Part shown: piece after piece, positions 29,923 through 47,408 of the stretch
Layout: the number at the start of each line of letters is the position of its first letter
Position numbering within the stretch: the first letter of the stretch is position 1
Origin: Galbibacter pacificus
GTDB taxonomy: Bacteria; Bacteroidota; Bacteroidia; Flavobacteriales; Flavobacteriaceae
Reading direction: 5' to 3'
Length of the DNA stretch: 64,000 nucleotides
Assembly (NCBI RefSeq): GCF_029603165.1
Contig: NZ_JAQSVC010000002.1
Span: 434,001 to 498,000 of the forward strand
Notes under the pieces: model-generated
The model's database searches: none
Told to the model about the DNA's origin: nothing
The model's input: the letters and a program-made list of their open reading frames with translations, nothing else
Position numbers and translations under genes: made by a program

Positions 29923-29953
29923 TTGGAAATAGTGTAAGGATTCACTATATTTG
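29923..29953 (+). promoter_or_regulatory. Early rightward promoter with overlapping operator
   Basis: TTGG at 29923-29926, exactly 19 bp, then TATATTTG at 29946-29953: a consensus host-type promoter. Within it, ATAGTG (29929-29934) and CACTAT (29943-29948) form an inverted repeat with an 8-bp spacer, covering the spacer and the -7 box, where a bound repressor would block RNA polymerase. Confidence 0.75.
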
Positions 29954-29974
29954 CGACAAATAAAAAAGAATAAA

Positions 29975-32412: not shown

Positions 32413-32446
32413 AATAGTGATTTTAGATACCACCAAATTATAAAAA

Positions 32447-32477
32447 TTCTTCCAAAACAAACCCATTCCTGTTAATT
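32447..32477 (+). promoter_or_regulatory. Phage promoter-like element P1 (before sigma gene)
   Basis: TTCTTCC at 32447-32453, 16 bp, TGTTAATT at 32470-32477, continuing CTACAGGT. First of six related elements. The 20 bp at 32435-32454 are identical to 33253-33272. Confidence 0.65.
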
Positions 32478-32503
32478 CTACAGGTAATAACAAGTTCCTA
32501 CTT

Positions 32504-33001
32504 ATGAAAATGAACCCAAACTTACAAGATATATCCAAAGAGCATGACCGCTTTGTACTTATGGCAAAGAAGCTTTTAGGTGCCGCCGCAAATGATGATA
32601 AGGCAAATGAAATGGTACAGGAAATGTACATAAAGCTACATGAGAGACTAAGCGACCAGAGCCAACCACAACTGCAATTTGTATCAACTGGATACATCTT
32701 CAGGATGCTACGGAACCATCTATATAACAGCACCGCAAAGAAGCAATACGAGTACTTACAGGATGATGATTACTGGTCTAGTACACAGACCTACGAAGAT
32801 AACGAACTACTAGAATGGCGGCAAGATATATCAGCTAAATTAGACGAAATTCCATACTTAGAAAGGGAAGTGCTACTAAGACACCAAGAACAATCACAGA
32901 GAAGCTTACAAAGGGAAACAGGAGTATGTAGAGACCGCTTAAGAATGTACAAAAATCGTGCACTAGATAAACTAAAAGAAATGTATAATGATGATGTTTA
33001 A
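32504..33001 (+). CDS. Phage-encoded sigma-70/ECF-like factor
   Basis: 165 residues: an N-terminal region 2-like helix set (DKANEMVQEMYIKLHERL) and a C-terminal region 4 helix-turn-helix (IPYLEREVLLRHQEQSQRSL, then TGVCRDRLRMYKNRALDKL). Such two-domain layout fits ECF-type sigma factors. Next ATG at 32510 is an alternative start. Preceded by P1, a member of the repeated promoter set, so it may activate its own gene and the late genes. Sits between replication and packaging genes, the usual place for a middle/late activator. Confidence 0.75.
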   Translation: MKMNPNLQDISKEHDRFVLMAKKLLGAAANDDKANEMVQEMYIKLHERLSDQSQPQLQFVSTGYIFRMLRNHLYNSTAKKQYEYLQDDDYWSSTQTYEDNELLEWRQDISAKLDEIPYLEREVLLRHQEQSQRSLQRETGVCRDRLRMYKNRALDKLKEMYNDDV

Positions 33002-33246
33002 AGAGATTTTATTTTTTTTATAAGTTTGACTCCGCATTCTGCTCGATGTTTTTTTAGAAGTTCTTCATCTTCTTCTAGGCAAAGTAAAAGTACTTCGCTA
33101 GTGTTTACGACATAGCGTTTTATAGCCTTTTTTATGAATTCATTAGGGCTTAAATGAAGGGGTAGTAATTCATTTACAACTTCACAAACCTGGCTATCCA
33201 AAAATTTTTTATAGTAAGAGCAGTCCTTATAACCATCCAAATGCAT
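32998..33246 (-). CDS. Leftward small prophage protein, divergent from P2
   Basis: 82 residues: MHLDGYKDCSYYKKFLDSQV, then LHLSPNEFIKKAIKRYVVN resembling a ribbon-helix-helix or short helical DNA-binding pattern, then LLLCLEEDEELLKKHRAE. Its end overlaps the sigma gene stop by 4 bp, converging. Possibly a regulator; the family is not recognised. Confidence 0.6.
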   Translation of the reverse strand: MHLDGYKDCSYYKKFLDSQVCEVVNELLPLHLSPNEFIKKAIKRYVVNTSEVLLLCLEEDEELLKKHRAECGVKLIKKIKSL

Positions 33247-33264
33247 AATCTAAAATTATAAAAA

Positions 33265-33294
33265 TTCTTCCATTAACCTATATATCGGTTAATT
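33265..33294 (+). promoter_or_regulatory. Phage promoter-like element P2
   Basis: TTCTTCC at 33265-33271, 15 bp, GGTTAATT at 33287-33294. The ATG of the next gene is only 4 bp later, so the mRNA would be nearly leaderless or a later start is used. Confidence 0.6.
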
Positions 33295-33298
33295 AAGT

Positions 33299-33787
33299 AT
33301 GAAAAATAGAGAAGAACTACAGCAATACAAAGTAAAAGAAATAAAAAAAATGTACCCCGACCATAAGTACAAGGTAGGGATGACAAAAGAAGCTTACATT
33401 GATAAGATACTCGCCCCAAAAGGATTAGGTGATACCATAGAGAAGATAACAACCGCCACAGGAATCAAAAAAGCAGTTGAATTTGTAAGCGAGAAGACAG
33501 GTATTGATTGCGGGTGCGAAGAAAGAAAACAGAAATTAAATCAGTTATTCCCATATAACAAGCCTAACTGCATGAGCGAAGAACAGTTAAATGAATGGAA
33601 TAGTACCATAACGGAAATCAAAAAGACAAATACAATAACAGCAAAGCAACAGGACACTATCATACTATTACTTAAAGAAGTACTTAACATGAGCATATCA
33701 AAAGACAATTGCAGGACTTGCAACGGAGAGATATGGAAAAAGTATATAGATATGATTGATAAAGTCGCCGCAGAACATAAAAAATAA
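33299..33787 (+). CDS. Conserved-looking phage protein near terminase, unknown
   Basis: 162 residues. The N-terminal 50 residues resemble a SAP-like helix-extended-helix (YKVKEIKKMYPDHKYKVGMT). The centre has Cys-rich GIDCGCEERKQKLNQLFPYN, the C-terminus has NCRTCNGE; these Cys pairs could bind zinc. If P2 makes a leaderless RNA the start could be Met18 at 33350. First gene of the packaging unit; a role in head or packaging is only contextual. Confidence 0.6.
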   Translation: MKNREELQQYKVKEIKKMYPDHKYKVGMTKEAYIDKILAPKGLGDTIEKITTATGIKKAVEFVSEKTGIDCGCEERKQKLNQLFPYNKPNCMSEEQLNEWNSTITEIKKTNTITAKQQDTIILLLKEVLNMSISKDNCRTCNGEIWKKYIDMIDKVAAEHKK

Positions 33788-33792
33788 ATACT

Positions 33793-33912
33793 ATGAAATT
33801 ATTTAAGAAGAAAAAAGAAACAATTATAGAACCGCCGCAGGAAAAGAACAGCAAGAAACAACAACCTATAGAAGAGACACAAGAGTACAAACAAAATAAC
33901 GGACTAGCATAA
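33793..33912 (+). CDS. 39-residue Lys/Gln-rich protein
   Basis: Starts MKLFKKKKETIIEPPQEKNS, fully hydrophilic and probably disordered. It begins 5 bp after the previous stop and overlaps the terminase small subunit start by one base (TAATG), which supports translation. Function unknown. Confidence 0.55.
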   Translation: MKLFKKKKETIIEPPQEKNSKKQQPIEETQEYKQNNGLA

Positions 33913-34373
33913 TGGCATATACACAAGAACAAAGAGATAAGATACTAGATGATATTTGCCAATTCATTAGAAAGGGAGATACATTACGTACAGCATTATC
34001 TAAGGCTGATAAAGGGGATGAAGGTAATAGTGGATATAGTGAGAAGGGTATCAGTTGGACAACATTTTATGAATGGATAGACGAAAACCCAAAAAAAGCG
34101 GAACAATATTCCCGTGCGATAGAGATTAGGGCCGAAAAAATGGCAGAAGAACTACTTGATATCGCAGATGCTACAGCCGACGATATAATTACAGATAAGG
34201 ACGGTAAAGAGATAATAAACCACCATGTAGTAAATAGAGATAAGCTAAGAGTAGATACAAGGAAATGGTTAATGTCCAAAATGTTCGCCAAAAAATACAG
34301 CGACAAATCAACCCATATACTAGAAGGTGGGGATAAACCACTTGATATCAACATAGACTTCGGGGATGATTAA
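33912..34373 (+). CDS. terS: Terminase small subunit
   Basis: 153 residues. N-terminal helix-turn-helix region (QRDKILDDICQFIRKGDTLR... WTTFYEWIDENP), central helices, and the typical C-terminal motif DTRKWLMSKMFAKKYSDKS seen in Bacteroidota and Firmicutes phage TerS proteins. It recognises phage DNA and recruits the large subunit. Unusually it is separated from terL by 1.9 kb of cargo genes. Confidence 0.85.
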   Translation: MAYTQEQRDKILDDICQFIRKGDTLRTALSKADKGDEGNSGYSEKGISWTTFYEWIDENPKKAEQYSRAIEIRAEKMAEELLDIADATADDIITDKDGKEIINHHVVNRDKLRVDTRKWLMSKMFAKKYSDKSTHILEGGDKPLDINIDFGDD

Positions 34374-34448
34374 GAAAACAGTTATTGATTGAGTTCATTT
34401 TATAGGGTGTCAGAAATGGCATCCTTTTTTTATGTTCAAAAAGATATG

Positions 34449-34542
34449 AAAATGAACATTTTGTTTATTTATAGGTTGTTAGGGTAGTTTATTAAAAAAT
34501 AATGTTTATATTTGTCGTAATACTAATGTAAATGAACATTTT
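34449..34542. promoter_or_regulatory. Twin operator-like palindromes around a recombinase promoter
   Basis: AAAATGAACATTTT at 34449-34462 and TAAATGAACATTTT at 34529-34542, 80 bp apart and identical in 13 of 14 positions; each is an inverted repeat (AAATG-AA-CATTT). Between them is TATATTTG at 34507-34514, a -7-like box. The second copy ends 3 bp before the tyrosine recombinase ATG. Confidence 0.55.
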
Positions 34543-34545
34543 ATT

Positions 34546-35082
34546 ATGACAGGAAGCACTTATTTAGAATTCGATACGGCACTTAATAAAGGAATGAAAT
34601 TAATAAAGGAAGAAAAACATAAAAACTTTGGTTTATTAATTATTACAGCCATTAATTTAGGCTTAAGAATTAGCGACTTATTAACTCTCACATTCGAACA
34701 GCTTAGAAAGGAATCATTTGAAATTGTCGAGGGTAAGACAGGGAAAAGAAGAAAGCTAACGGTGAACAGTAATATTAAGAACGCCCTGAAACACTTCACA
34801 GATGAACCAGATAACTTTTATTGTTTTCGTTCGCAAAAGAACTCTGTATACAGCACACAACAGATTAACAGATTGATGAAGGAACATTTTAACGGCGGCA
34901 GAAAATATACAAGCCATTCACTAAGAAAAGCATTCGGTAGAAGGGTATGGGAAAATGATAATGGAAGCGAAAGAAGTTTGGTATATCTCAATGAGTTATT
35001 TAACCACGTAACTATTAAGCAGACAAAAGTTTACCTAGGGATAAGGCAGGAAGAACTGGATAATATCTATTTGAATTTGTAG
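34546..35082 (+). CDS. Minimal tyrosine recombinase (catalytic domain only)
   Basis: 178 residues with the R-H-R-Y set: Arg in GLRISDLLTL, H-x-x-R in TSHSLRKAFGR, then FNHVTIKQTKVYLGI with His and the nucleophile Tyr. There is no N-terminal SAM-like core-binding domain, so it is about half the length of a phage integrase. It has its own promoter/operator region and lies between terS and terL. It may move this cassette, invert DNA or resolve multimers; the prophage integrates with its serine recombinase instead. Confidence 0.8.
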   Translation: MTGSTYLEFDTALNKGMKLIKEEKHKNFGLLIITAINLGLRISDLLTLTFEQLRKESFEIVEGKTGKRRKLTVNSNIKNALKHFTDEPDNFYCFRSQKNSVYSTQQINRLMKEHFNGGRKYTSHSLRKAFGRRVWENDNGSERSLVYLNELFNHVTIKQTKVYLGIRQEELDNIYLNL

Positions 35083-35176
35083 TTGATAACTAATTGATAA
35101 ATAATGTAGTATGAATTATATGTACATGTATTTTTCTCTTAATTTTATGATTTAAAGTTAAATAAAGTACAAAGGG

Positions 35177-35911
35177 ATGAATAACAATATACCAATCGTT
35201 CTAAAAAAGAATATTGTAAGCACTTTTATTAATATAAGAAATGTAGTTGAAAAAAATTCTGAATTTATAAGAATTGTAAGAGATGATTCTTTTATAATTC
35301 ATATTGAAGATATAAAAAATGAATTGGGTTTTAAATGGATTATATCTACCCCTGAATTTGCAAGGAATAGAGTTAGTTACAATATAGAGTTCATTCCAAA
35401 GTCTAGGATAGACAATGGAATAAAAAAGCAAACCTATGATAGTTCAATGGTAATAAAGAATTTGGAAGGTTGGATTAATCTTATTAAAGACCATTCAAAT
35501 TTTAATCCACATCCAAATAGTAATATGTTCAACCATTACCGAAATAATATTTTTGAAAAGTTTATATCACTTGACCCTGATGCAAAGACTTTACCCTTTG
35601 ATGATGAAGCCCAACTTGCAATTAAATCTTTCACAAGTAAATTATTATTAGAATTAAAGAATGAAGATATTGAAGATGGTGAATACGTAGATTCAGTTAA
35701 AGATTTAGATGAAAATATTGGTAATTATACAAAACAGCAAGTTTTAGATAAATTTGCAGATATATATGCTAAAACTAGAATTGCAGGAGGAAAAATTTTT
35801 ACCGCATTTGTTAATGTTTTAAAAAAGAATGTTCCCCCATTCCTAATAGAAAAAGGGTTGGAGTATGTATATCAATTAGGTGCAGCAGCTATTACTCATA
35901 TGATAAACTAA
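35177..35911 (+). CDS. Cargo protein in the terS-terL gap, unknown
   Basis: 244 residues, AT-rich gene. N-terminal beta/alpha region (FIRIVRDDSFIIHIEDIKNE), a long helical C-terminus and a final hydrophobic helix (PPFLIEKGLEYVYQLGAAAI). No family recognised. The location next to a stand-alone recombinase and inside the packaging module fits a moron gene; a phage-defence or host-fitness role is possible but not shown. Confidence 0.6.
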   Translation: MNNNIPIVLKKNIVSTFINIRNVVEKNSEFIRIVRDDSFIIHIEDIKNELGFKWIISTPEFARNRVSYNIEFIPKSRIDNGIKKQTYDSSMVIKNLEGWINLIKDHSNFNPHPNSNMFNHYRNNIFEKFISLDPDAKTLPFDDEAQLAIKSFTSKLLLELKNEDIEDGEYVDSVKDLDENIGNYTKQQVLDKFADIYAKTRIAGGKIFTAFVNVLKKNVPPFLIEKGLEYVYQLGAAAITHMIN

Positions 35912-35983
35912 CAATTTTCCCAGCTCCATCAACATGCAGTATGAGAAAAATAAACATCAAAACCGCCTCAATTAGCGTCCATT

Positions 35984-36199
35984 TTAATTTTCAAGTGTTG
36001 CCATAACAACCGCCCTAAATGTTTTTCTTTTATTTTTGGGTATCTCCTCTTCAATAGTATCAATATTTTCTTCCACAATATTTAATAAATTTTTATGGTA
36101 TTTAGCTTGTTGTTCTTCTGACAAGACGGATTTTAAAGCTTTTATTTTACATAAAAGTGAGAAGAAATTTACGTTAGATGAAAATTCTGAGTAATCCAT
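35984..36199 (-). CDS. Leftward small prophage protein, divergent from P3
   Basis: 71 residues from ATG 36199 (MDYSEFSSNVNFFSLLCKIK), all-helical and acidic in the middle (NIVEENIDTIEEEIPKNKRK). A longer frame starting at 36244 would overlap promoter P3, so the inner start is preferred. Unknown function; third case of a small leftward gene placed back to back with a phage promoter. Confidence 0.55.
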   Translation of the reverse strand: MDYSEFSSNVNFFSLLCKIKALKSVLSEEQQAKYHKNLLNIVEENIDTIEEEIPKNKRKTFRAVVMATLEN

Positions 36200-36228
36200 G
36201 GTAAAAATATTTCTTTCAAGATAACAAT

Positions 36229-36259
36229 TTCCCCCAACAGCCACAACATACTGTTAATT
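36229..36259 (+). promoter_or_regulatory. Phage promoter-like element P3 (before terL)
   Basis: TTCCCCC at 36229-36235, 16 bp, TGTTAATT at 36252-36259, continuing CCATAGGT, matching the P1 and P5 extensions. Confidence 0.6.
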
Positions 36260-36283
36260 CCATAGGTGCAATAAATAACACTT

Positions 36284-37567
36284 ATGAGCAAATTAACTAT
36301 CAAAGCCCCAAAGCTTACCGATTACCAAAAAGCATTTCTTTACCCAGAATCAAAAGCAAGATTTAGGATTGTATTGGCCAGTACTAAGTGCGGTAAAACA
36401 TTCAGTTGTATATGGTACTTATTTGAACAAGCCCATAAATCAGATGTTAAGGAAGGTGATAATTTCTGGTGGGTTTCTCCAACTTACTCACAAAGTAAGA
36501 TAGCCTTTAAGCGCATGAAGCGTAAGGTGATAAAATCAAAGGTATATAGCATAAATGAAAGTAACCTTACCATTACTTGTCCTAACGGTGCTGTTATTTC
36601 TTTTAAATCCGCTGACAATGAAGATAACTTGTACGGTGACGATGTAAAGACAGCTATTTTTGATGAAGCTAGTAGAGCAAAAGAAGAAGCTTGGTTTGCT
36701 TTACGTTCAACTCTTACAGCTACTAAGGGGGATTGCATCCTTATTGCCAACTACAAAGGACAAGGTAACTGGCTTACCTTACTAGCAGAAAAAGCCGAAA
36801 CAGATAGTACTTACGAAAAGTTCGTTATTAATGCATACGATGCAGTTGAAGCTGGCATACTATCCCTTGAAGAAGTAGAACAAGCAAAGAAGGATTTACC
36901 AGAAAAGATATTTAAGGAATTATACTTAGCCGAAGGTGGTGGAGAAGCAGGGCAATTAATTGATGAAGAAAGTATAAGCAAGTTATTTACTAATCAAATT
37001 GGAGGCGGTATAAAATACATTACTATAGACGTAGCACGCCTTGGAAAAGACAAATCTGTAATTTATGTATGGGATGGACTTAAAGTAATCGAGATTAAAG
37101 AACTGGCTAAAAATACATTAATTGAACTCTCAAAAGAGATTAGAGAATTACAGGCGAAATATAACGTAAACTTGTCTAACATCATTGCAGACGAAAATGG
37201 AGTGGGAGGGTTTCTTTGTGACCATATCGGATGTAAAGGATTTGTTAATAATGCCAGTCCCCTAAAGGTAAAAGGAGAGAAACAAAACTTTGCCAGCTTG
37301 AAAGACCAATGTTATTACAAATTAGCTGAAATAATAAACAGTAACCTTATTTCAATAACTTCAATTAATTACAAAACAAAAGAACTTCTTATACAGGAAC
37401 TGCAACAGATAAAACTACCTGCTGAGGTTGACACCAACAGAATAAAACTACTTAACAAGGATGCCATTAAAAAAATAATAGGACGTTCACCAGACTATAG
37501 CGATGCAATGATGATGCGCATGTATTTTGAACTACGCCCTAATTATGGGGTTTATCATATAGGTTAA
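36284..37567 (+). CDS. terL: Terminase large subunit
   Basis: 427 residues, ATPase plus nuclease. Walker A variant ASTKCGKT around 32-39, Walker B TAIFDEAS with Asp127-Glu128. The RNase H-like nuclease has Asp249 (YITIDVARLG), Asp303 (IIADENGVGG) and Asp404/Asp407 (PDYSDAM). It packages DNA into the prohead through the portal and cuts concatemers. It has its own element, P3, rather than being coupled to terS. Confidence 0.93.
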   Translation: MSKLTIKAPKLTDYQKAFLYPESKARFRIVLASTKCGKTFSCIWYLFEQAHKSDVKEGDNFWWVSPTYSQSKIAFKRMKRKVIKSKVYSINESNLTITCPNGAVISFKSADNEDNLYGDDVKTAIFDEASRAKEEAWFALRSTLTATKGDCILIANYKGQGNWLTLLAEKAETDSTYEKFVINAYDAVEAGILSLEEVEQAKKDLPEKIFKELYLAEGGGEAGQLIDEESISKLFTNQIGGGIKYITIDVARLGKDKSVIYVWDGLKVIEIKELAKNTLIELSKEIRELQAKYNVNLSNIIADENGVGGFLCDHIGCKGFVNNASPLKVKGEKQNFASLKDQCYYKLAEIINSNLISITSINYKTKELLIQELQQIKLPAEVDTNRIKLLNKDAIKKIIGRSPDYSDAMMMRMYFELRPNYGVYHIG

Positions 37568-37570
37568 AAT

Positions 37571-37601
37571 TTCTCCCACACACAACTTCAAACGGTTAAT
37601 T
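37571..37601 (+). promoter_or_regulatory. Phage promoter-like element P4
   Basis: TTCTCCC at 37571-37577, 16 bp, GGTTAATT at 37594-37601, continuing CTATA. It starts 4 bp after the terL stop and is 22 bp from the next ATG. Confidence 0.6.
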
Positions 37602-37623
37602 CTATATCAAGGAATAATCAAAC

Positions 37624-38334
37624 ATGAAGCAAACTTTAACAATCCCCACATCTTTAAAAGATATCACACTTAAAAGTTATCAACGTTTTTTAGATGTGGC
37701 AGAAGATAGTGATGAACAGTTTATACGTGAAAAAATGATACAGATATTTTGCGGTGTAGAACTACTTCATATACAGCATATACCATCAAAAGATTTCATT
37801 GAAATAACTGATGGCATAACAACGGTACTATCCGAAACCCCAGAACTTAAACAGACTTTCAAATTAGATGGTATAACCTACGGCTTCATCCCGAACTTAG
37901 ACAAGATGTCACTTGGTGAGTTTATCGACTTAGATACGCATATAGGCAATTGGCAAAAGATGCATATAGCTATGAGCGTTCTTTACCGCCCCATCACAGA
38001 AAAGAAAGGGGAGAAGTACAGAATAGAAGCTTACGAAGGAGAGCCAAACGAAGCTTTTAAAAAGATGCCCCTTGATATTGTCATTGGTTCAATGCTTTTT
38101 TTTTGGACTATAGGCAACGACTTACTGAATTATATCAAGAACTATTTACCCAGAGTAGCACGGGAACAACAAAAGAAAGTACAAGAAACTTTAATAGCAA
38201 ATGGGGTTGGTACATCTCAATTGACGCACTCAGTGGAGGGGATTACCTCAGAATTGAGACAGTCGTTAAACAGAACGTTCATACCTCCCTCAATCATTTA
38301 TGCTACCTCAAAGATAAAGCCGAAACAGAACTAA
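37624..38334 (+). CDS. Dual-frame tail assembly chaperone-type protein, short (0-frame) product
   Basis: 236 residues; soluble N-terminal domain ending near YGFIPNLDKMSLGEFIDLDT and a helical C-terminus. It has features of a G/GT-type tail chaperone: a T9 run at 38096-38104 makes the slippery heptamer T-TTT-TTT in frame, and the -1 frame stays open to 38357 with a conserved-looking tail. Position in the tail module agrees, although four genes separate it from the tape measure instead of none. If not a chaperone, it is a structural protein of unknown role. Confidence 0.6.
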   Translation: MKQTLTIPTSLKDITLKSYQRFLDVAEDSDEQFIREKMIQIFCGVELLHIQHIPSKDFIEITDGITTVLSETPELKQTFKLDGITYGFIPNLDKMSLGEFIDLDTHIGNWQKMHIAMSVLYRPITEKKGEKYRIEAYEGEPNEAFKKMPLDIVIGSMLFFWTIGNDLLNYIKNYLPRVAREQQKKVQETLIANGVGTSQLTHSVEGITSELRQSLNRTFIPPSIIYATSKIKPKQN

Positions 38335-38357
38335 AACAATACAGTAGAAATGCGTAA
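37624..38357 (+). CDS. Same gene, predicted -1 frameshift (GT-like) product
   Basis: Slipping back one base at 38097-38103 joins residues 1-160 to 84 residues in the -1 frame, giving about 244 residues. The new tail has KWGWYISIDALSGGDYLRIE and then LNHLCYLKDKAETELKQ, a Trp/Gly/Tyr-rich pattern that looks like genuine protein. The 0 frame stays open too for 76 more codons, so both frames are used over about 230 bp. An A-rich stretch near 38170-38178 is an alternative slip point. The product would end 8 bp inside the next gene. Confidence 0.5.
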
Positions 38358-38799
38358 TTATTTTCAAGTACTTAAACTTATAAAGGAAACCTTAGAAGCC
38401 GATAATTTAGTTAATACGGTTACTCAGGGTGATATTGCCGATGTTGATTTAGACAAAAAGAACATCTACCCTTTAACGCACATACAGACAGGAGCAGCCA
38501 CTTTAGGACTACAGACAATCAGTTTTTCCATTACTGTTTTTGCTATGGATATACGTGATAAGAGAAACCAGACAGTAGAAGAAAAGTTTGTTGGCAATGA
38601 TAATGAGATTGATAACATGAATACAATGTTAGCCATTTTAAACAGGCTGTATAAAGCAATTGTAAAGCTTGATAATGATGTAGCTATAAGTGAAAACCCA
38701 ACATGTGAACCATTTTATGAAAGTAGGATGAATTTACTGGATGGGTGGGCAATGACTTTTGACATTGAGATACCAAATACCGAGATAGCTGTATGTTAA
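38350..38799 (+). CDS. Phage structural protein, tail-terminator-like
   Basis: 149 residues. Alpha/beta pattern and small size (FQVLKLIKETLEADNLVNTV ... LQTISFSITVFAMDIRD ... LLDGWAMTFDIEIP) resemble tail-completion or neck proteins that cap the tail tube. Overlaps the next gene by 7 bp. Assignment rests on size, pattern and place, not on a signature motif. Confidence 0.5.
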   Translation: MRNYFQVLKLIKETLEADNLVNTVTQGDIADVDLDKKNIYPLTHIQTGAATLGLQTISFSITVFAMDIRDKRNQTVEEKFVGNDNEIDNMNTMLAILNRLYKAIVKLDNDVAISENPTCEPFYESRMNLLDGWAMTFDIEIPNTEIAVC

Positions 38800-39290
38800 T
38801 TCCAAATAACACAAAAAAAGCATTATCCCAATTTGCCCAAACAGTAGTGAGGGAATCAAAAAGCAATGTCTCCAAGGTAAGTAAGAAGCTTTATAACAGC
38901 ATTGACTATGATTTAAGGGTACATAAACAGTCCTTCTCATTATCCTTTGAAATGGAAGAGTACGGACAGTACCAAGATAAAGGGGTTAGTGGTACTAAGA
39001 AGAAATATGATACAGAATACAAGTATACTACCAAACGCCCACCATTAGCTGTATTTGATAAATGGATAGTTAAGAAAAAAGGGATTGCCCCCAGAGATAA
39101 TAAAGGAAAATTTCAAAGCAGGAAATCATTACAGTATCTATTGTCGAAATCGATTTTTGAACAAGGCATAAAACCAAGTTTATTTTTTACCAAGCCATTT
39201 GAGAAGGCTTTTAAGGATTTGGATGAAGAAGTAATTGAAGCCTTTGCACTTGATACCGATAAATTTTTAAAACAGACATTGAAAAAGTAA
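38793..39290 (+). CDS. HK97-gp10-like head-tail/neck protein
   Basis: 165 residues. The N-terminus (NTKKALSQFAQTVVRESKSN...SKKLYNSIDYDL) followed by EYGQYQDKGVSG and a late SLFFTKPFEKAF is the pattern of gp10-like neck/tail-completion proteins. Basic. Overlaps the next gene by one base. Function by family resemblance. Confidence 0.6.
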   Translation: MLIPNNTKKALSQFAQTVVRESKSNVSKVSKKLYNSIDYDLRVHKQSFSLSFEMEEYGQYQDKGVSGTKKKYDTEYKYTTKRPPLAVFDKWIVKKKGIAPRDNKGKFQSRKSLQYLLSKSIFEQGIKPSLFFTKPFEKAFKDLDEEVIEAFALDTDKFLKQTLKK

Positions 39291-40258
39291 TGATTTTAAC
39301 ACGCTCCCCATACACGATACACCCATCTAAAATAGTTGGTACAACATCGGCCGTAAACATGACTTTACATTGTTGGACTTCTGGAAGTATGCCAGGTTCC
39401 CCAACATATACCATTTTTAAAAATGTACCCCCATCTACGATTGAATTTGAAATATCAAATCTTATAAAGGACTTTTATGTATATACGCCTATATATTACA
39501 GTTCCACAGGGGTACGGAAATCTATAGAAGGTAATATTGTTGCCGTAAATATCTATCAAACATATTTAACGCCAGTTGATACCGAGAACTTTACAGGCTT
39601 ATTTGCAACAGATGGGTACGGCTACTTTATGGAGGGAGAAAATCCAGATATACCATCAAATAAGATACTGCTATCCAATGATTACTATGTTGTTAATGCA
39701 TCAGGCTACTTCAATATACCAGTATTAAAGAGTGCAGGAACAATCAATATAAACGGTACAAATTATAACTATCAAACAGGAACAGAAATAAGGAGCAACC
39801 TACAAAATATATGGTTGGATTTATCAAATTTTGAAGATGATTTTACAGTAACCATCGGAGGCAATGAAATCTATTTTGAAATAAAAAGTGAATGTAAGTA
39901 CACCCCAAAGGACATAATGTTTTTGAACAAATACGGAGCATGGGAGATAATGACATTTTTTAAAAAGCCCACAGAAAGCTTAAAAACGGAATCCAAAGAG
40001 TTTAAACCTTACACCAGAACATATCAGAGATATAACACCACGGGAAGGGAAAATTTAGAACTCAATTCGGGCTTCCTTCCTGAATGGTACAATGAAACAG
40101 TAAAGCAATTATTACTGTCTGAGCACGTGTATTTGTTGGAAGGTGGCACACATATACCTTTAACTGTAGATACAAGTTCTTACGAGTTTAAAACACGTAA
40201 AACAGACAAGTTAATAAGCCATAATATAAAATTCAAATATGCTTTTGATGTAATATGA
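39290..40258 (+). CDS. Phage tail-associated structural protein
   Basis: 322 residues, beta-rich, with FEISNLIKDFYVYTPIYY and a late FKPYTRTYQRYNTTGRENLE. It is part of an overlapping run (next gene overlaps by 4 bp) leading to the tape measure. Probably a baseplate or distal-tail component; no motif identifies which. Confidence 0.5.
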   Translation: MILTRSPYTIHPSKIVGTTSAVNMTLHCWTSGSMPGSPTYTIFKNVPPSTIEFEISNLIKDFYVYTPIYYSSTGVRKSIEGNIVAVNIYQTYLTPVDTENFTGLFATDGYGYFMEGENPDIPSNKILLSNDYYVVNASGYFNIPVLKSAGTININGTNYNYQTGTEIRSNLQNIWLDLSNFEDDFTVTIGGNEIYFEIKSECKYTPKDIMFLNKYGAWEIMTFFKKPTESLKTESKEFKPYTRTYQRYNTTGRENLELNSGFLPEWYNETVKQLLLSEHVYLLEGGTHIPLTVDTSSYEFKTRKTDKLISHNIKFKYAFDVI

Positions 40259-42315
40259 AGCAAACCACTATATATATAGAAAATGAAAGACTGGACTTGT
40301 TCAAGGATGAGAACATTGTAATTAATTCGAGCGTACAGAACATCAATGATATATCTAAGGTTTTTACCGATTATTCACAAAGCTTTACAGTTCCTGCATC
40401 CCAAAACAACAACAGGATTTTTAGGCATTATTACAACGCTTCTATTGTAAACGGTTTTGATGCAAGGGTAAAGAGAACAGCTAAAATTGAAATATCCAGC
40501 ATCCCATTTAAGGAGGGAAAGATAAGACTGGAAGGTGTAACCGTCAAGAACGGAAAGCCCGAAAGTTATAAAATCACATTTTTCGGCAACTTGGTTAGTT
40601 TAACTGATTTGTTCGGGGATGATATATTAAAGGATGTTGACTTTAGCCAGTATAACCATTTATACAATGCTGATACGCTTAGAATAGCTTTTGATAACGA
40701 TGATTATGGGGGAGTAACAAACACAGGAATATTTTTTAAGGCACTTGTCTATACGGCAATTTCACCTAAAAGGAGATTTTTATACAATGCAAATGCAGGT
40801 GATACAACGGACACAGAAACAGTCCTAAATATAGCCTCACAACCTATCAAGATACAGGATGTTACCCTTGCTATGAGGGTAAGGGATATTTTTAATAAGA
40901 TAGAAACTGTGTACGGTATTGATTTTTCAGATGAACTCATAAATGGTACAGGCATATTCTACAATCTATATATGACACTTGGTAATTCCAAAGATGGGGT
41001 AGTATTACGTAGTGCGAATGATGTAAAGCTAACTTCATCCAGTACAACACAATACCATCAACAAGTAGACTATGACGGGGCACATGAAGGACAAAGTTAT
41101 ATATCCCACTTTACAAAGGTCACCCCCTCGGCAGGGTATGAGAATGTGACTTACACGATAACAGCACGTGATATTACAAATAATATAAGTACATCAAAGA
41201 CAATAACAGGTAATGGAAGTCATGGTACAGGTATTGATTGGGAAGATGTACCAACGATTCCCTATGAAAGAGATATTGAGTTTTATATTAATGCAGATGC
41301 CCCCTTTCAATTTACTGCTGAAACTTGGATAACATTAGAAAGATACATTGAGGTAATGCCGCCTAATCTAACAAGGAGCTATACCACAACCAAGCTAAAT
41401 GATGTTGACCAGACATCAATTACGGTTAGGGCTATTATTTCAGATAATATGCCAGATATGAAAGTAAAGGACTTTGTAACTGGTATTATCAATGCCTTTA
41501 ACTTGGTGGTTATTCCTACTTCAGATACTTCCTATTACGTTGATACCCTTAATAATTGGTATGCTGATGGGAATGAATATGATATAACCAAGTATGTAAG
41601 TATTGAAAATGTAGATATTTCAAATCAGGAGTATTTAAACGAAATTAATTTCGAGTATGAAGAGCCAAAAACGTTTCTTCAACAGCAGTTTAAAACCCAA
41701 AACAACAGATACTACGGAAATCTTCAACACATAGTAACTGATGGTAGCGGTGAAAAAGTAGATGGACAAGAATACAGCATTAAACTACCATTCGAGCAGA
41801 TGATATATGAAAGGCTATATGATGCAGATTCAAGTGATTTAACGAATTTCCAGTATGGCTACAAGGTAGATGAGGAAGAAGAACCAACAGACGCAAAACC
41901 GATTTTGTTTTTTAATACTGAAACTAGGTTAGGTGACTATACAATACAAATAGACAATGGAAGCGGAGGAACAACAGAAGTAAATGAATGCAATGTACCA
42001 TACATCTATGAAAGAAGATATAGTAACTTCAGTAGTAATCAATCTTTAACGTTTGGAATTGAAACAGACACCTATACGGGTTATCTCTTTGAAAAGACGC
42101 TATACAATAACTATTACGAAGATTATATAACCGATATATTTTCAGCACAAAGAAGGCTGTACAAATACACCGCCAAACTACCTGAATATCTATTAACTAA
42201 GTTACAGCTAAATGATAAAGTAATCATATCAGGTACACGCTATATAATCAATAATATGGAAATAAACCTTACCACCAATATAACACAATTGGAACTGCTA
42301 AACGATATATATTAA
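40255..42315 (+). CDS. Large phage tail/baseplate protein
   Basis: 686 residues. N-terminus YIENERLDLFKDENIVINSS, then DYSQSFTVPASQNNNRIFRH, a start seen in large tail proteins of Bacteroidota siphophages, followed by beta-rich domains and a C-terminal region (KLQLNDKVIISGTRYIINNM) reminiscent of baseplate hub folds. No enzyme motif. Just upstream of the tape measure gene with one small gene between. Confidence 0.55.
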   Translation: MKQTTIYIENERLDLFKDENIVINSSVQNINDISKVFTDYSQSFTVPASQNNNRIFRHYYNASIVNGFDARVKRTAKIEISSIPFKEGKIRLEGVTVKNGKPESYKITFFGNLVSLTDLFGDDILKDVDFSQYNHLYNADTLRIAFDNDDYGGVTNTGIFFKALVYTAISPKRRFLYNANAGDTTDTETVLNIASQPIKIQDVTLAMRVRDIFNKIETVYGIDFSDELINGTGIFYNLYMTLGNSKDGVVLRSANDVKLTSSSTTQYHQQVDYDGAHEGQSYISHFTKVTPSAGYENVTYTITARDITNNISTSKTITGNGSHGTGIDWEDVPTIPYERDIEFYINADAPFQFTAETWITLERYIEVMPPNLTRSYTTTKLNDVDQTSITVRAIISDNMPDMKVKDFVTGIINAFNLVVIPTSDTSYYVDTLNNWYADGNEYDITKYVSIENVDISNQEYLNEINFEYEEPKTFLQQQFKTQNNRYYGNLQHIVTDGSGEKVDGQEYSIKLPFEQMIYERLYDADSSDLTNFQYGYKVDEEEEPTDAKPILFFNTETRLGDYTIQIDNGSGGTTEVNECNVPYIYERRYSNFSSNQSLTFGIETDTYTGYLFEKTLYNNYYEDYITDIFSAQRRLYKYTAKLPEYLLTKLQLNDKVIISGTRYIINNMEINLTTNITQLELLNDIY

Positions 42316-42317
42316 CG

Positions 42318-42476
42318 ATGATAGTACAGATATTAAAATTACTCCAAACAGATAACTATTATGGCATTTCTAAAGAAATAGAGATAGCCAAAGGAAAGAA
42401 TGAACTGCCCAAATCCTTCCAAGAAATAATCAACCAAGCTAAAAGAAAACTTAAATGGCAATTAAGAAAACCATAG
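42318..42476 (+). CDS. 52-residue protein upstream of tape measure
   Basis: ATG 2 bp after the previous stop: MIVQILKLLQTDNYYGISKE, then a helical, basic end. It overlaps the tape measure start by 22 bp, typical of translational coupling. Function unknown. Confidence 0.6.
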   Translation: MIVQILKLLQTDNYYGISKEIEIAKGKNELPKSFQEIINQAKRKLKWQLRKP

Positions 42477-44395
42477 ATATTGATGTAAATACAAAGAATG
42501 CACAGAAAAATGTAGATGATTTAGGTAACTCTATTGATAAAACATCTAAAAAGGCAAAGGGTTCTTTGGATGGTGTTACTAATGCCGCTGATAATTTTAC
42601 TGGTGGGCTTATAACCAAAGGTAAAAACCTTATAGGAACATTGGGAGGTGTTGCCAAAGGTTTTAAAGGTATCGGTGTTGCAATTGCAGCTTCTGGTATT
42701 GGTTTATTGGTTACGGTTATTGCTTCTGTAGTGGCTGCCTTTAAATCTAGTGAGGAAGGACAAAATAAGTTTGCTAAACTGATGGGTGTAATAGGTTCAG
42801 TGGTAGGTAATCTTATGGATGTTCTTAGTGATTTTGGTGAGGTTGTAATTGATTCTATTGAAAACCCACAGAAAGCTTGGGAAGATTTTAAAACTGCTTT
42901 AGAAACAGGCTACGAGTTCATTAAAGGGCAAGTAATTGACAGATTTAAAGCTAATTGGACTATCCTAACCAAAGGAGTAGAAGCTGGTATACTTTCAATG
43001 CGTATAAAATGGAACGAATTTACGGGAGATGCCGAAGAAGCCGAACAGTTAAAGACAGAACTAAAGGAAGTACAGACCGAAATTGAAAAATCGGTTGATG
43101 TAATAAACAAGCGCAACCAAGAAATCGTAAACGGTTTTAACGCTGCCATAGATAAGGTAAAAGAATTTGCCGCAGAAGTAGAGGCAGATGCAAAAAGAGC
43201 CGCAGAAATAGCCAATATACGAGCAGCAGCAGATAAACAAGAAAGGGATTTATTAGTTGCCCGTGCCAGAGCCAGTAGAGATGTAGCAGATTTAAGGGCT
43301 AAGGCAGTTGAAAAAGAAAAGTATGATGTAGGTGAAAGAATTAAATTCTTAGAACAGGCTGCAACAATAGAAGAAAATATAACCAATAGGGAAATAGCAC
43401 TTGCCCAAGCTAGATATAACGCTAAAGTAGCAGAAAACTCACTATCCAAATCAACCAAAGAGGACTTAAAAGAAGAAGCACAATTAAAGGCAGAGGTAAT
43501 ACAGCTTGAAACTAAAAGACTGAATTTACAGAGAAGCCTTAACAGTCAAATATCTGCATTCCAGAAAGAAGCCGAGGCACAAAGGGAAGCCGAAAAAAAA
43601 GCTAAGGAAGAACAGCTTAAAAAGGAACAGGAAGATGAATTAAAAAGGTTGGAATCAATACAAGCTATCAGGGATGAGTTTAAACAGAAAATAGAAGATG
43701 CCGAAGCTGAAAGCGAGATTGAAAAACTTGAACTGGAAGAAGAAAGAAAGATTGCGGAACTAGAAGCATTGGAAGCTTCCGAGCAACAAAAGGCAGAAGT
43801 AGTTGCATATTATCAAAAGATGCGAACGGAAGCCGAAAAAGAAGAAGCCAAAAAACGTGAAGAAATTGCATTACAGGAAAAGGAATACAAAAATGATGTG
43901 CTTAATGCCGAAGCTGATTTATTGGGGCAATTTTCAAATATTTTAAAACAACTGGGAGAAAAGAATAAAACCTTAGCCATAGCAGGGATTATTGCAGAAC
44001 AAGTAGCATCCGTTGCCAAAATCATTTCCAATACAGGAGTTGCCAATGCAAAAGCGGCAGCAGCCTTGCCATTAACAGGGGGAATGCCATTTGTAGCCAT
44101 AAATTCTATTGCAGCAGGTTTAGGTATAGCAAATTCGGTATTAAGTGCCAAAAAGGCTATATCTCAATTAGGTGGTGGGGCTTCACCAGACAGTTCAGGC
44201 GAAATATCGGCAAATAATTCTTCTTCTGCTCCAAATGCACCTTCGTTTAATATAGTTGGTGATACAGGTATAAATCAGATTGCACAAAGTTTAAATAACC
44301 AAAATAACAACCCTGTAAAGGCGTATGTGGTAGGTAAAGATGTAAGCACACAACAGGAACTGGACAGGAATATACAAGCCACAGCAAGCTTCTAA
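42455..44395 (+). CDS. Tape measure protein
   Basis: 646 residues. N-terminal DVNTKNAQKNVDDLGNSIDK repeat-like helices, a hydrophobic glycine-rich stretch near 65-95 (IGVAIAASGIGLLVTVIASV), a long Glu/Lys/Ala-rich coiled coil about 190-500, and a second hydrophobic region near 505-570. Its length sets tail length; using the usual rough figure of 0.15 nm per residue, the tail would be near 100 nm. Supports siphovirus morphology. Confidence 0.88.
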   Translation: MAIKKTIDIDVNTKNAQKNVDDLGNSIDKTSKKAKGSLDGVTNAADNFTGGLITKGKNLIGTLGGVAKGFKGIGVAIAASGIGLLVTVIASVVAAFKSSEEGQNKFAKLMGVIGSVVGNLMDVLSDFGEVVIDSIENPQKAWEDFKTALETGYEFIKGQVIDRFKANWTILTKGVEAGILSMRIKWNEFTGDAEEAEQLKTELKEVQTEIEKSVDVINKRNQEIVNGFNAAIDKVKEFAAEVEADAKRAAEIANIRAAADKQERDLLVARARASRDVADLRAKAVEKEKYDVGERIKFLEQAATIEENITNREIALAQARYNAKVAENSLSKSTKEDLKEEAQLKAEVIQLETKRLNLQRSLNSQISAFQKEAEAQREAEKKAKEEQLKKEQEDELKRLESIQAIRDEFKQKIEDAEAESEIEKLELEEERKIAELEALEASEQQKAEVVAYYQKMRTEAEKEEAKKREEIALQEKEYKNDVLNAEADLLGQFSNILKQLGEKNKTLAIAGIIAEQVASVAKIISNTGVANAKAAAALPLTGGMPFVAINSIAAGLGIANSVLSAKKAISQLGGGASPDSSGEISANNSSSAPNAPSFNIVGDTGINQIAQSLNNQNNNPVKAYVVGKDVSTQQELDRNIQATASF

Positions 44396-44424
44396 AGTCC
44401 ATTTAAAGAGTACTTCTGTTAATT
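44394..44424 (+). promoter_or_regulatory. Phage promoter-like element P5
   Basis: Weak upstream box AAAGTCC at 44394-44400, 16 bp, TGTTAATT at 44417-44424, continuing CTGTAGGG. 28 bp before the protease-scaffold gene; overlaps the tape measure stop codon. Confidence 0.55.
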
Positions 44425-44452
44425 CTGTAGGGCGAAAAATAAATCCCCGCTT

Positions 44453-45508
44453 ATGGAAGTATATAATGTGATATTTAATGAAAAAGAAGATAAAGGTATT
44501 TATGCCTTGTCTTTGGTTGAAAATCCTGCTATGGAAGGTATGTTTGTGGCTCTTAAAGAGAACGAAAAACCCGAAACCTTTCACACTCAATTATCTACTA
44601 TAGATGAAGAACAAAGACTTTTAGTAGGTCTGGCCATGCAACCCGATAAGCTTATTTACCGCAATGTTGAAGGTAGAGAGTTCTATATCACATTTTCCAA
44701 AGAAGAAATAAAAAAAGGTGCCCATGCCTTTTTAAAAAACCACTTCAATAACAATTCATCCCTTGAGCACGAAGAAGTAATTGATGGTGTTGCAGTTGTA
44801 GAAAGCTGGATTATCGAAGATGCAGAACATGACAAATCAAAAAAATACGGTTTTGAATATCCTGTAGGTAGTTGGATGGTAGCCATGAAAGTAGATAGTG
44901 ACGAGGTATGGAACAGTTATGTAAAGAGTGGGAAAGTAAAAGGCTTTTCAATTGATGGGCTTTTCAGCTTAGAGAAAATTAATTTAAAATCAGATATGAA
45001 CGTAATAGACGAACTAAAAAAAGGATTTGCTGAATTAAAAGCAATGCTTTCAAATCAAGAAATAAAACTTGGCTCAATCAAGGCAGGGGATATCACCATT
45101 TATTTTGAAGGTGAATTACTTGCTTTGGATGCACCTGTATTTTCAGATGAAGAAATGAAAGAGACTTTACAGGACAACGAATATGAACTTGAAACAGGGA
45201 TGATTGCAGTTGTAACAGATGGTAAGGTAGCTGAATTAAAAGAGCCACAGCCAGAAGAAGAAGTTGAACTTGCAAATGAAGACCTCCTTAAAGAATTGAA
45301 CTCTTTAAAGTCGGAATTTGAGGCTTATAAAGCTAGTTTGAGCAAACAACTTGAAGATAAAGAAAAAGAAGTTGCTGATTTGAAAGCTGAACTTTCTGAA
45401 ACCCCAGCAACCAAGCCTATTAAACACACACCTGTACAGTTAGCATCAAAAGAAGTTACAGGAACAAACCCAAAAGAACGAATTTTTAACCGATTAAGAA
45501 ATAGCTAA
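44453..45508 (+). CDS. Prohead protease (XkdF-like) fused to scaffold domain
   Basis: 351 residues. Residues about 1-180 match XkdF/serine-protease prohead proteases: LEHEEVIDGVAVVESWIIED, YPVGSWMVAMKV, and GFSIDGLF, whose Ser is the likely nucleophile with the upstream His as partner. A second part (about 270-320) is a coiled coil (LLKELNSLKSEFEAYKASLS...), then a basic C-terminal tail. This is a protease plus scaffold in one chain. It lies 2 bp before the capsid gene. Confidence 0.8.
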   Translation: MEVYNVIFNEKEDKGIYALSLVENPAMEGMFVALKENEKPETFHTQLSTIDEEQRLLVGLAMQPDKLIYRNVEGREFYITFSKEEIKKGAHAFLKNHFNNNSSLEHEEVIDGVAVVESWIIEDAEHDKSKKYGFEYPVGSWMVAMKVDSDEVWNSYVKSGKVKGFSIDGLFSLEKINLKSDMNVIDELKKGFAELKAMLSNQEIKLGSIKAGDITIYFEGELLALDAPVFSDEEMKETLQDNEYELETGMIAVVTDGKVAELKEPQPEEEVELANEDLLKELNSLKSEFEAYKASLSKQLEDKEKEVADLKAELSETPATKPIKHTPVQLASKEVTGTNPKERIFNRLRNS

Positions 45509-45510
45509 TA

Positions 45511-46413
45511 ATGGCAACAACTAACACAGTAAACAGTAATTATGCAGGTGAAGCCGGAAAGATTTTAACCGCTTCATTTAAAGAAGGTGATACTTTAGGT
45601 AGAGGACTTGTAACAGTAGCCCCTAAAGTAAAATACAAATTAAACCTAAGAAAGATACAGACAACCGATGGACGTGTAGACTATACATGTGGGTTTACCC
45701 CAGCAGGTGCAGTTGTATTATCTGAAAATGTACTTACAGTAAAGCATATCAAAGATGATTTTCAAGTATGTAAAGATACTTTCAGAGCCACATGGAACGG
45801 TTTAGATAGTGAAATGATGGATGGTATCAAGGCTGATAAATTAGCTGATACTGCTGAAAACTTGGATTATGAGATATGGAACGGTAACGCAGCTACTACT
45901 GGTCAAATAGGTGGTTTTATCCCTCAATTTACAGCAGATGATGATGTAATCAAAGCTAACAACGGTATCGTACCCGCTGCTGCTGCCATTACAAAGGCAA
46001 ATGTACTTTCACAATTTGAATTAGTATCAAATGCGGTACCAACTTCAATCAAAAAGAAATCCGATTTAGTTTTTGCAGTTTCTTCTAATGTTGCTGAAGC
46101 TTATAGCCAGTACTTGGTAGCTAATGGAATCGGAGCAGGTTTTGGCGGTAAAGAGCTTGATATGGTCTATGGACGCTATAAAGTTGAAGAAATCGGTGGT
46201 TTACCCGATAATACAATTGTAGTTTATAGAAAAACTAACCTAGTTTTTGGTACCGATGAAGAAAATGATGCAAACGAAGTATCAGTTGTAGATGAAGATG
46301 AAATAGGATTACTTTCTGGACAAGTAAGGGGTAAAGTAGCTTATTTTGGTGGAACTGGCTATTACAACTCTGCCGAAATCGTATGGTATTTATCTACTGA
46401 AACAGCAGACTAA
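45511..46413 (+). CDS. Major capsid protein
   Basis: 300 residues directly after the protease-scaffold gene, the normal place. N-arm region followed by LGRGLVTVAPKVKYKLNLRK, central DDFQVCKDTFRATWNGLDSE, and a C-terminal GKVAYFGGTGYYNSAEIVWY typical of capsid proteins of Bacteroidota phages. HK97-like fold is inferred. A strong hairpin terminator follows, probably to raise capsid transcript levels relative to the genes after it. Confidence 0.8.
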   Translation: MATTNTVNSNYAGEAGKILTASFKEGDTLGRGLVTVAPKVKYKLNLRKIQTTDGRVDYTCGFTPAGAVVLSENVLTVKHIKDDFQVCKDTFRATWNGLDSEMMDGIKADKLADTAENLDYEIWNGNAATTGQIGGFIPQFTADDDVIKANNGIVPAAAAITKANVLSQFELVSNAVPTSIKKKSDLVFAVSSNVAEAYSQYLVANGIGAGFGGKELDMVYGRYKVEEIGGLPDNTIVVYRKTNLVFGTDEENDANEVSVVDEDEIGLLSGQVRGKVAYFGGTGYYNSAEIVWYLSTETAD

Positions 46414-46433
46414 TCAAAATAAATAATTAACTC

Positions 46434-46470
46434 AAAAGGCAGGTAGGCAAATGCTTGCTTGCCTTTTTTT
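46434..46470 (+). terminator. Terminator after capsid gene
   Basis: AAAAGGCAGGTAGGCA pairs with TGCTTGCTTGCCTTTT through G-U wobbles and is followed by seven Ts. Confidence 0.75.
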
Positions 46471-46484
46471 AATAATATAAAACT

Positions 46485-46997
46485 ATGGCATGTTTAATAA
46501 CAGCAGGACGCACAGAACCATGTAAAGATTCTTTAGGTGGTATAAGGGCTGCTTACTTTATAAATTACGTGGAAGACCCTTTTACTATTACGGACGGTGA
46601 GGCAATCGCTATTAATGTAGATGTAACTGAAGCTTTCAAGTACGAACTTCGGGCGGATGGTAACAACTTTGCTCAAAATAAAGTAAGTGACAGAAACACT
46701 GGTACAAACGTTAATACTCAAACCCTGACTTTAGCCCTGAAGCAATTAGATAAAGAAACCAGCTTGCAAGTTGATTTAATGAGCAAGGGAAGACCGATAA
46801 TAGTAATCGAAGATTATAACGGCAATTTTCAAGCTGCTGGTATTTCGGAAGGAATGGATTTAACGGGTACGGATATAAATTCTGGTGGTGCAAAAACAGA
46901 TTTCAATGGGTATAATCTGACCTTGACCGCAATGGAAAAAGATTTAGCCCCTTTCCTGGACGAATCCACTATAACAGCACTTAAGGCACTTGTATAA
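46485..46997 (+). CDS. Tail tube-type protein, copy 1
   Basis: 170 residues. Starts MACLITAGRTEPCKDSLGGI and ends with GGAKTDFNGYNLTLTAMEKD. The gene at 49588 is a clear paralogue (MSCLISKGRKEPCKNNIAGV ... GGAKSEFNGYTFNFEGREEK). Size and beta-rich pattern fit a major tail protein. It stands between two terminators, as expected for a highly expressed structural gene. Confidence 0.6.
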   Translation: MACLITAGRTEPCKDSLGGIRAAYFINYVEDPFTITDGEAIAINVDVTEAFKYELRADGNNFAQNKVSDRNTGTNVNTQTLTLALKQLDKETSLQVDLMSKGRPIIVIEDYNGNFQAAGISEGMDLTGTDINSGGAKTDFNGYNLTLTAMEKDLAPFLDESTITALKALV

Positions 46998-47020
46998 AAA
47001 ATAGCAGTTCTTTTATTTTT

Positions 47021-47047
47021 CCCTTGTCGTCCTGACAGGGGTTTTTT
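47021..47047 (+). terminator. Terminator after tail tube-type gene
   Basis: CCCTTGTC / GACAGGGG stem (one G-U), 5-nt loop, then TTTTTT. Confidence 0.75.
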
Positions 47048-47055
47048 GTTTATGC

Positions 47056-47086
47056 TTCTTCCATCACTAGCCTTATACGGTTAATT
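47056..47086 (+). promoter_or_regulatory. Phage promoter-like element P6
   Basis: TTCTTCC at 47056-47062, 16 bp, GGTTAATT at 47079-47086. Lies directly after the terminator at 47021 and 16 bp before the ATG at 47103, so it restarts transcription for portal and fibres. Confidence 0.65.
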
Positions 47087-47102: not shown

Positions 47103-47408
47103 ATGAACGTAATAAAACCTATACATACCCCTCAAAGCTTATTATTTATACCCCGTTATGAGGCTGATACAGTTACTATATGGCTGTTAGATGAGCTCTT
47201 AGAAAAATCTTATGAATATACATCGGCTGTAACCTACTTAGATGGATATATGACAGCAGAAATCACCCATGACTTCAAAGAAGGTGATAACTATTCCTAT
47301 GAAATATCAGATATGGATGGAAATCTAATGTATAGGGGAAAAATCTTCATCACAGACCAAAACGACATTCAAAATTATAAAGTTGACCCAGACCTATTAA
47401 CCTTATGA
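47103..47408 (+). CDS. Small phage structural protein
   Basis: 101 residues, all-beta pattern: LLFIPRYEADTVTIWLLDEL ... YSYEISDMDGNLMYRGKIFI. It resembles small beta-sandwich phage proteins found beside portal or tail genes in Bacteroidota. Overlaps portal by 4 bp. Function unknown. Confidence 0.55.
   Translation: MNVIKPIHTPQSLLFIPRYEADTVTIWLLDELLEKSYEYTSAVTYLDGYMTAEITHDFKEGDNYSYEISDMDGNLMYRGKIFITDQNDIQNYKVDPDLLTL

Follow-up and report, generated by a model that had tools for sequence, protein, structure and literature searches.

Organization of the locus and the six elements

The window analysed here, 64,000 nucleotides of Galbibacter pacificus (contig NZ_JAQSVC010000002.1, positions 434,001 to 498,000), contains a prophage of about 30 kb, which splits a comM/yifB-like gene in two. 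Its late region, on the plus strand, extends from about 32.4 to 54.3 kb and begins with a gene (32504) for a protein resembling sigma factors of the extracytoplasmic function (ECF) type, followed by the genes of the small and large terminase (terS and terL) and by those for tail, protease, capsid, portal, fibre and lysis functions (Table 1). Six short two-box elements, TTCTTCC-N17-GTTAATT or close variants of it, precede units of this region and are considered here as candidate promoters.

All six elements listed in the first-pass annotation can be read at their positions, each upstream of a plus-strand phage gene that begins 4 to 28 bases after the end of GTTAATT. The gap between the boxes, given there as 15/16 bp, is in fact 17 at five sites and 16 at 33265, and the C-rich first box ascribed to the whole set holds for five sites but not for 44394, where it reads AAAGTCC with only TCC matching. 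The CTACAGG-like extension is present in the elements at 32447, 36229 and 44394, as had been noted, and an additional feature, C[T/G] directly 5' of GTTAATT, is found in all six. Counted from the start of GTTAATT, the ATG lies at 33, 11, 31, 29, 35 and 23 bases, in the order of the elements.

The strict pattern TTCTTCC-N13..18-GTTAATT occurs three times in the window and not once in 100 dinucleotide shuffles. In the 4.04 Mb genome, searched on both strands, TTCYYCC-N16/17-GTTAATT has seven matches, a descriptive count and no blind test, since the pattern had been relaxed until it covered five of the six elements; five of these matches, all on the plus strand, fall in a 14.6 kb stretch of the prophage, and the reversed-pattern control has none. 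The rate outside the prophage predicts less than 0.01 match in the interval of the elements, and both outside sites lie inside opposite-strand open reading frames (ORFs), as delimited by a crude ORF caller. A motif equally frequent in host DNA, the outcome that the first-pass annotation had named as fatal to its reading, is not what the genome scan returned, and chance or a common host motif is rejected on its outcome; the element is a phage-specific repeated one placed before late units, of the kind known from phages phiEco32 and 7-11. Results are less clean with CKGTTAATTMNNWA, which omits the first box (10 places genome-wide, of which 5 fall in the prophage, against 7 for the control); an earlier, looser pattern, TTCNTCC-N12..18-GTTAATT, has 10 genome places, three of them in the prophage.

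The elements do not follow the host promoter pattern, as had also been claimed: TAnnTTTG, the -7 element of Bacteroidota primary promoters, is absent from both strands between -39 and +60 bases around the six element starts. The stricter host-type pattern TTTG-N16..20-TAnnTTTG has five matches in the prophage, all of them at 25.6-30.0 kb, in its early part.

Elements 1 and 2 have 19 identical upstream bases in common (AAATTATAAAAATTCTTCC, within 32422-32453 and 33240-33271), perhaps part of divergent promoters for minus-strand genes. Elements 1, 2 and 3 are each accompanied by a small gene oriented divergently from them on the minus strand (at about 32134-32413, 32998-33246 and about 35984-36200).

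The sigma-like protein

The 165-residue product of gene 32504 matches PHROG 1740 (RNA polymerase sigma factor) and, over residues 22-160, TIGR02937 with 38.7 bits, below the cut-off of 42.9. A profile that includes 15 relatives finds ECF sigma factors in the PDB, the best at 4.6e-9, with 11 sequences named as sigma factors at E<=0.01. Sigma70_r2 is matched by 10 of the 16 aligned sigmas, the window protein not among them, and the Pfam region 4 models by one of the 16. The predicted structure, a modest model (predicted local distance difference test, pLDDT, 76.6; predicted template modelling score, pTM, 0.46), comprises two helical domains connected by a disordered link at residues 81-97, with helices at 118-126, 132-139 and 143-164 in the C-terminal helix-turn-helix (HTH) part. 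Foldseek gave zero PDB matches at E<=0.001, and those from 1.6e-3 and weaker are largely sigma factors, with ECF sigmas at many ranks. Homology to region 2, a region 4 with an HTH at the C-terminal end (from the full-length profile matches and the model helices), and a length of 165 residues in two helical domains, with neither region 1.1 nor region 3 and within the approximately 160-200 residues of ECF sigmas, agree with one another; judged by its sequence, the product is an ECF-type sigma factor, with predicted binding to core polymerase.

Alternatively, the elements could be sites of another phage activator working with the host primary sigma factor in the manner of Ltr or RinA, with the sigma-like protein being either this activator or a bystander. 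The position of the gene is compatible with such a role, as Ltr genes occupy the same place, where they close the early cluster just ahead of the late promoter (excerpts of PMC13123087), and the curated models score the protein weakly. However, the Ltr promoter P23 keeps its TATA box (excerpts of PMC13123087), whereas TAnnTTTG is missing from the six sites; two boxes with one fixed spacing per phage, the second at a -10 register, fit a sigma factor better; and the protein is homologous to both region 2 and region 4 across its length. We consider this alternative unlikely. Ltr, ArpU and RinA gave zero matches in Pfam, PHROG or NCBIfam at the limits used, in searches that included no direct family comparison.

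Different elements at the same genes in related phages

A search of 397 family genomes with the window sigma gave 45 matches at E<=1e-5, among which, the own genome aside, that in a genome of another genus (G215) stands out (1.7e-25, 37-39% identity); the terL of its prophage is 60% identical to that of the window. G215 carries four elements, all with N17, at orthologous starts, namely those of the sigma gene, the gene after terL, the protease gene and the gene before the portal gene. Their first boxes are, in this order, AACTACC, TTCTTCC, AAAGTCC and TTCTTCC, and their second boxes ATTATAT, ATTTATA, ATTATTA and ATTAATA, so that even the weak AAAGTCC at the protease start is common to both prophages. 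The terS and terL genes of G215 overlap and have no element at their junction.

The two sigmas are alike in one part and not in the other, with 18 of 24 residues identical in the HTH (75%) versus 20 of 85 in region 2 (24%, residues 1-90), and comparison of the window sigma with five other phages gives 4-6 of 24 and 23-29%, respectively. Among the phages read, TTCTTCC is common only to the window and G215, and their second boxes differ. A similar HTH beside a common first box, and a divergent region 2 beside divergent second boxes, is as expected if region 4 reads the first box; common descent adds to this agreement.

The remaining matches to the sigma bear on the possibility that the elements are promoters of a host ECF sigma factor exploited by the phage, since 43 of the 397 genomes, besides the own one and G215, contain a protein with a 25-31% match to it. 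We regard this as very unlikely, as the genome holds just two other matches of the motif, both within opposite-strand ORFs, and each phage has its own element beside its own sigma.

The Nonlabens phages P12024S and P12024L (NC_018271, NC_018272) resemble the window prophage in having an orthologous sigma, the same block order and the same late genes, and differ from it in the sequences of the boxes, in the absence of an element before the sigma gene, and in an annotation that names only 'sigma-70 region 2'. In P12024S this protein, gp33, is encoded in the same position ahead of terS and terL, and an element peculiar to this phage, AAAACAAA-N14/15-GTTAATA, precedes gp05, gp08, gp41, gp44 and gp45, with weaker forms preceding gp01 and gp35. 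Minus-strand genes of P12024S (gp04, gp07, gp40 and gp43) lie opposite its elements, some with host-type TATATTTG promoters.

Neither the single-protein scan of viral contigs nor a search of 50,697 phage records with the window sigma sequence gave a match. A profile of eight sigmas located a sigma ORF in 18 contigs, 17 from IMG/VR and G215, several of them near-duplicates; its distance upstream of terL is 0.9-2.3 kb. In an all-against-all comparison of 20 sets, the block gene (33299 family), the gene after terL and the protease family were each present in 17. A scan of 80 IMG/VR loci for the window motif with two mismatches revealed no clear set among the matches listed, and the notion of one motif in all terL relatives was dropped in favour of an element that differs by phage; when 17 phages were searched for K-mers, part of them showed a clear word and the rest did not.

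Closer relatives were sought through terL, which at E<=1e-20 has six matches in the 397 family genomes, that in the own genome among them, and matches only the own genome among 395 genomes of the order and 7 of the genus. The genus of G215 consists of one genome, and a further scan of genome contigs gave one partial match. G086 and G329 (terL 51% and 49% identical) have no sigma match and no visible element set.

A stretch similar to GGATTTCAATTTTTTTCAATATG is conserved directly before terS in several IMG/VR relatives (L009 at 2091, L010 at 741, L011 at 9747, L012 at 6458, L013 at 9750 and L019 at 9762), where it is perhaps a packaging site.

Association of the elements with the sigma gene

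The upstream regions of three orthologous late starts were compared pairwise, against shuffles, in 17 phages. A common, phage-specific segment was found at p<=0.05 in 22 of the 37 pairs, with at least one significant pair in 14 of the 17 phages, two of the starts being in one protein family in some phages, so that likeness by duplication is possible there. A two-box pattern derived from the elements of the relatives, [AT]ACAAN-N12..16-G[TC][TC]WWW-N5-ATG, has 29 forward and 0 reverse matches in 348 kb of 19 contigs (the 17 with a sigma found, and L213 and L217, included by their portal); ten of the 19 contigs are matched, and 25 of the 29 matches were judged to be at gene starts and four inside genes. 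The 116 terL contigs with no sigma on the stretch (1252 kb) have two forward matches, at one place, and two reverse ones, the 21 contigs with a far sigma (253 kb) one forward and 0 reverse, and the window and G215 none. These counts, which exclude the near-duplicates L010, L138 and L143, describe an association and are no blind test, as the pattern was taken from the sigma-bearing set and many of the sigma-less contigs are short.

Several results weigh against a phage sigma factor with promoters of its own. None of the pairs in the window alone is significant (p 0.075, 0.28 and 0.59), and L019 and L146 likewise have no significant pair. A blind all-pairs statistic, with 54 pairs versus 14.2 expected in phages with the sigma, 3 versus 1.1 in those without it and 3 versus 1.4 in those with a far sigma, barely separates these groups. 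The window protein matches no Pfam sigma model and falls short of the TIGR02937 cut-off. A weight matrix from the ten sites of the window and G215 scores those sites at 19-30, and chance sites reach 17.9; its application to other phages was abandoned as too weak to decide. Finally, the autoactivation of the sigma gene proposed earlier agrees with the element at the sigma start in the window and in G215, but not with the other 15 of the 17 sigma starts read, which have none; several of these 15 are probably ORF starts that the ORF caller placed too far downstream.

Promoter or translation signal

In the relatives, the second box lies exactly 11 bases before the ATG at 30 of 40 starts defined by homology, versus 18 of 433 other ATG starts of these sequences, and the ten starts that lack this layout are all in L009, L010, L012, L013 and L135. 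The 40 starts are what remains of 49 rows after removal of nine, these being the three of the window, A and C of L010, P of L012, and A of L012, L019 and L152, for which a neighbouring start with the element was used instead; for P12024S the start one gene further on was used. Among further starts, picked by the motif, four have the box at 11 bases and two at 9-10. In the window, the 11-base layout is seen only at 33265, where a later in-frame ATG makes the start of the gene uncertain.

So constant a distance could also point to a translation-start signal instead of a promoter, and in Flavobacterium base preferences near the start codon do replace the Shine-Dalgarno sequence. However, the base reported as preferred, in the excerpted text, is A at positions -3, -6 and -12/-13 (PMC6847099), the sequence of the box differs between phages, and in the window the distance to the ATG varies from 11 to 35 bases while the spacing of the boxes stays at 16-17, which speaks against a signal of this kind. 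Terminators directly upstream of the portal unit are a further argument against it, and we hold a translation signal to be extremely unlikely. The stem search found 13 terminator-like stems in all, compared with a shuffle mean of 8.8, and a stem occupies the same pre-portal place in five of eight phages (the window, G215, L213, L216 and L217). With a terminator directly before element 6 and before its counterparts in four relatives, a new start of transcription is required at this place. The window carries another terminator-like stem between terS and terL, along with two inserted genes, and terL is preceded by an element of its own.

If the first base of the ATG is taken as +1, a box that starts at -11 falls into -10 register, and the fixed spacing in the relatives thus predicts leaderless late mRNAs. 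In F. johnsoniae, by comparison, 87% of predicted transcripts have leaders longer than 10 nt (excerpts of PMC6847099).

Proposed mechanism and known systems

The phage sigma factor and late promoter set of the first-pass annotation gain support from the homology of the protein and from relatives that have their own sigma, and their own element, at the same genes. The six elements are most probably promoters of late units, which would be read by host RNA polymerase with the ECF-type sigma encoded at 32504. TTCTTCC would act as a -35-like box contacted by sigma region 4, and CKGTTAATT as a -10-like box contacted by region 2. The host-type promoter near 29922 would drive the early genes, and read-through from these would reach the sigma gene and provide the first sigma, which may then fire its own promoter (32447) as well as those of the packaging, terL, tail, protease-capsid and portal-fibre-lysis units. 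We infer the late regulon, as well as the binding of these sites by this sigma, its timing and its self-activation, from the arrangement described above.

The different elements at the same genes suggest that sigma and promoters evolve together. We can speculate further, giving it an even chance, that a lineage of flavobacterial phages has a fast-diverging ECF sigma and late promoters that change with it box by domain, resulting in a private specificity for late genes in each phage and, in most of these phages, in leaderless late mRNAs with the A of the ATG as the start.

The phages phiEco32 and 7-11 encode a sigma factor of their own, with matching promoters before late genes and also upstream of the sigma gene itself, their early genes are transcribed from host promoters, and their motif emerged when intergenic regions were compared in pairs, all of which resembles the present case as far as excerpts of their description go (PMC4331800); the sigma of phiEco32 has been called ECF (excerpts of PMC7881722). 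By the same excerpts (PMC4331800), they are lytic podophages of enteric bacteria, their core motif is TAATGTATA / TGATGT, compared with the TTCTTCC-N17-GTTAATT pair here, and they have a described anti-sigma gene; their sigmas are likened to that of the window by description. The Ltr regulators of phages of Gram-positive bacteria, encoded in the same genomic place as the sigma here, activate, like RinA, a TATA-box promoter via direct repeats (excerpts of PMC13123087), in contrast to the dispersed two-box elements and the sigma-like protein of the window. No description of late control of such a kind in Bacteroidota phages was found in the open-licence literature. While phage ECF sigmas with their own promoters are already known, the host phylum, the co-divergence and the leaderless layout look new.

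This arrangement amounts to a testable rule of how Bacteroidota phages control their late genes. Since nature provides approximately twenty pairs of sigma and promoter at orthologous places, these could show which sigma residues choose which bases. Leaderless late mRNAs, if true, would contrast with hosts whose own mRNAs mostly carry leaders.

Gene map of the prophage

Table 1. Elements, genes and terminator-like stems of the prophage, in positions of the window
Feature	Position	Strand	Evidence or remark
comM/yifB-like gene half, ChlI domain	24802-25167		PF13541
Large serine recombinase	25627		
Host-type promoter match (TTTG-N-TAnnTTTG) before early gene 30050	29922..29954	+	Pattern match only
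Element 1, before sigma gene	32447..32477	+	TTCTTCC-N17-GTTAATT, second box 32471-32477
Predicted ECF-type sigma factor, 165 aa	32504..33001	+	PHROG 1740 2.3e-9; TIGR02937 7.4e-10; PDB profile search; fold match
Element 2, before unknown gene-terS unit	33265..33294	+	TTCTTCC-N16-GTTAATT, second box 33288-33294; box start to ATG 33299 = 11
Gene of sigma-unknown-terS-terL block, LGDTIEKxTxATGIK motif	33299..33787	+	Family in 17/20 sets
Small terminase terS (Sf6 type)	33912..34373	+	PF20901 7.2e-24
Terminator-like stem after terS	34404..34425	+	Stem search
Element 3, before terL	36229..36259	+	TTCCCCC-N17-GTTAATT, second box 36253-36259
Large terminase terL	36284..37567	+	PF03237 9e-8; 60% identical relative in G215
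Element 4, before gene after terL	37571..37601	+	TTCTCCC-N17-GTTAATT, second box 37595-37601
Gene after terL (family A in comparison)	37624..38334	+	phrog_32199; family comparison
Tail genes incl. tape measure	tape measure 42455	+	
Element 5, before protease-capsid unit	44394..44424	+	AAAGTCC-N17-GTTAATT, second box 44418-44424; weak first box
XkdF-type protease	44453..45508	+	PF14550 2.6e-16
Capsid-like gene	45511	+	
Terminator-like stem immediately preceding element 6	47021..47041	+	Stem search
Element 6, before portal unit	47056..47086	+	TTCTTCC-N17-GTTAATT, second box 47080-47086; directly after intrinsic terminator
Gene before portal gene	47103..47408	+	PHROG search; family comparison
Portal protein	47405..49093	+	phrog_33693 1.2e-153
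Fibre gene	50169	+	
Endolysin gene	53837	+	
comM/yifB-like gene half, Mg_chelatase domain	55512-55952		PF01078

No attachment-site repeats were found at the flanks of the prophage, each of which was searched within itself only, so that this is no test of att sites. The two genes inserted between terS and terL are a tyrosine-recombinase-like gene and a gene of unknown function (34546-35082 and 35177-35911). The 'dual-frame gene' of the first-pass annotation corresponds to an overlap of two plus-strand frames, 37624-38334 and 38103-38357, where the gene after terL ends. The gene order from 36284 to 49093 is unusual, with the tail genes and tape measure ahead of protease, capsid and portal, and is common to the relatives.

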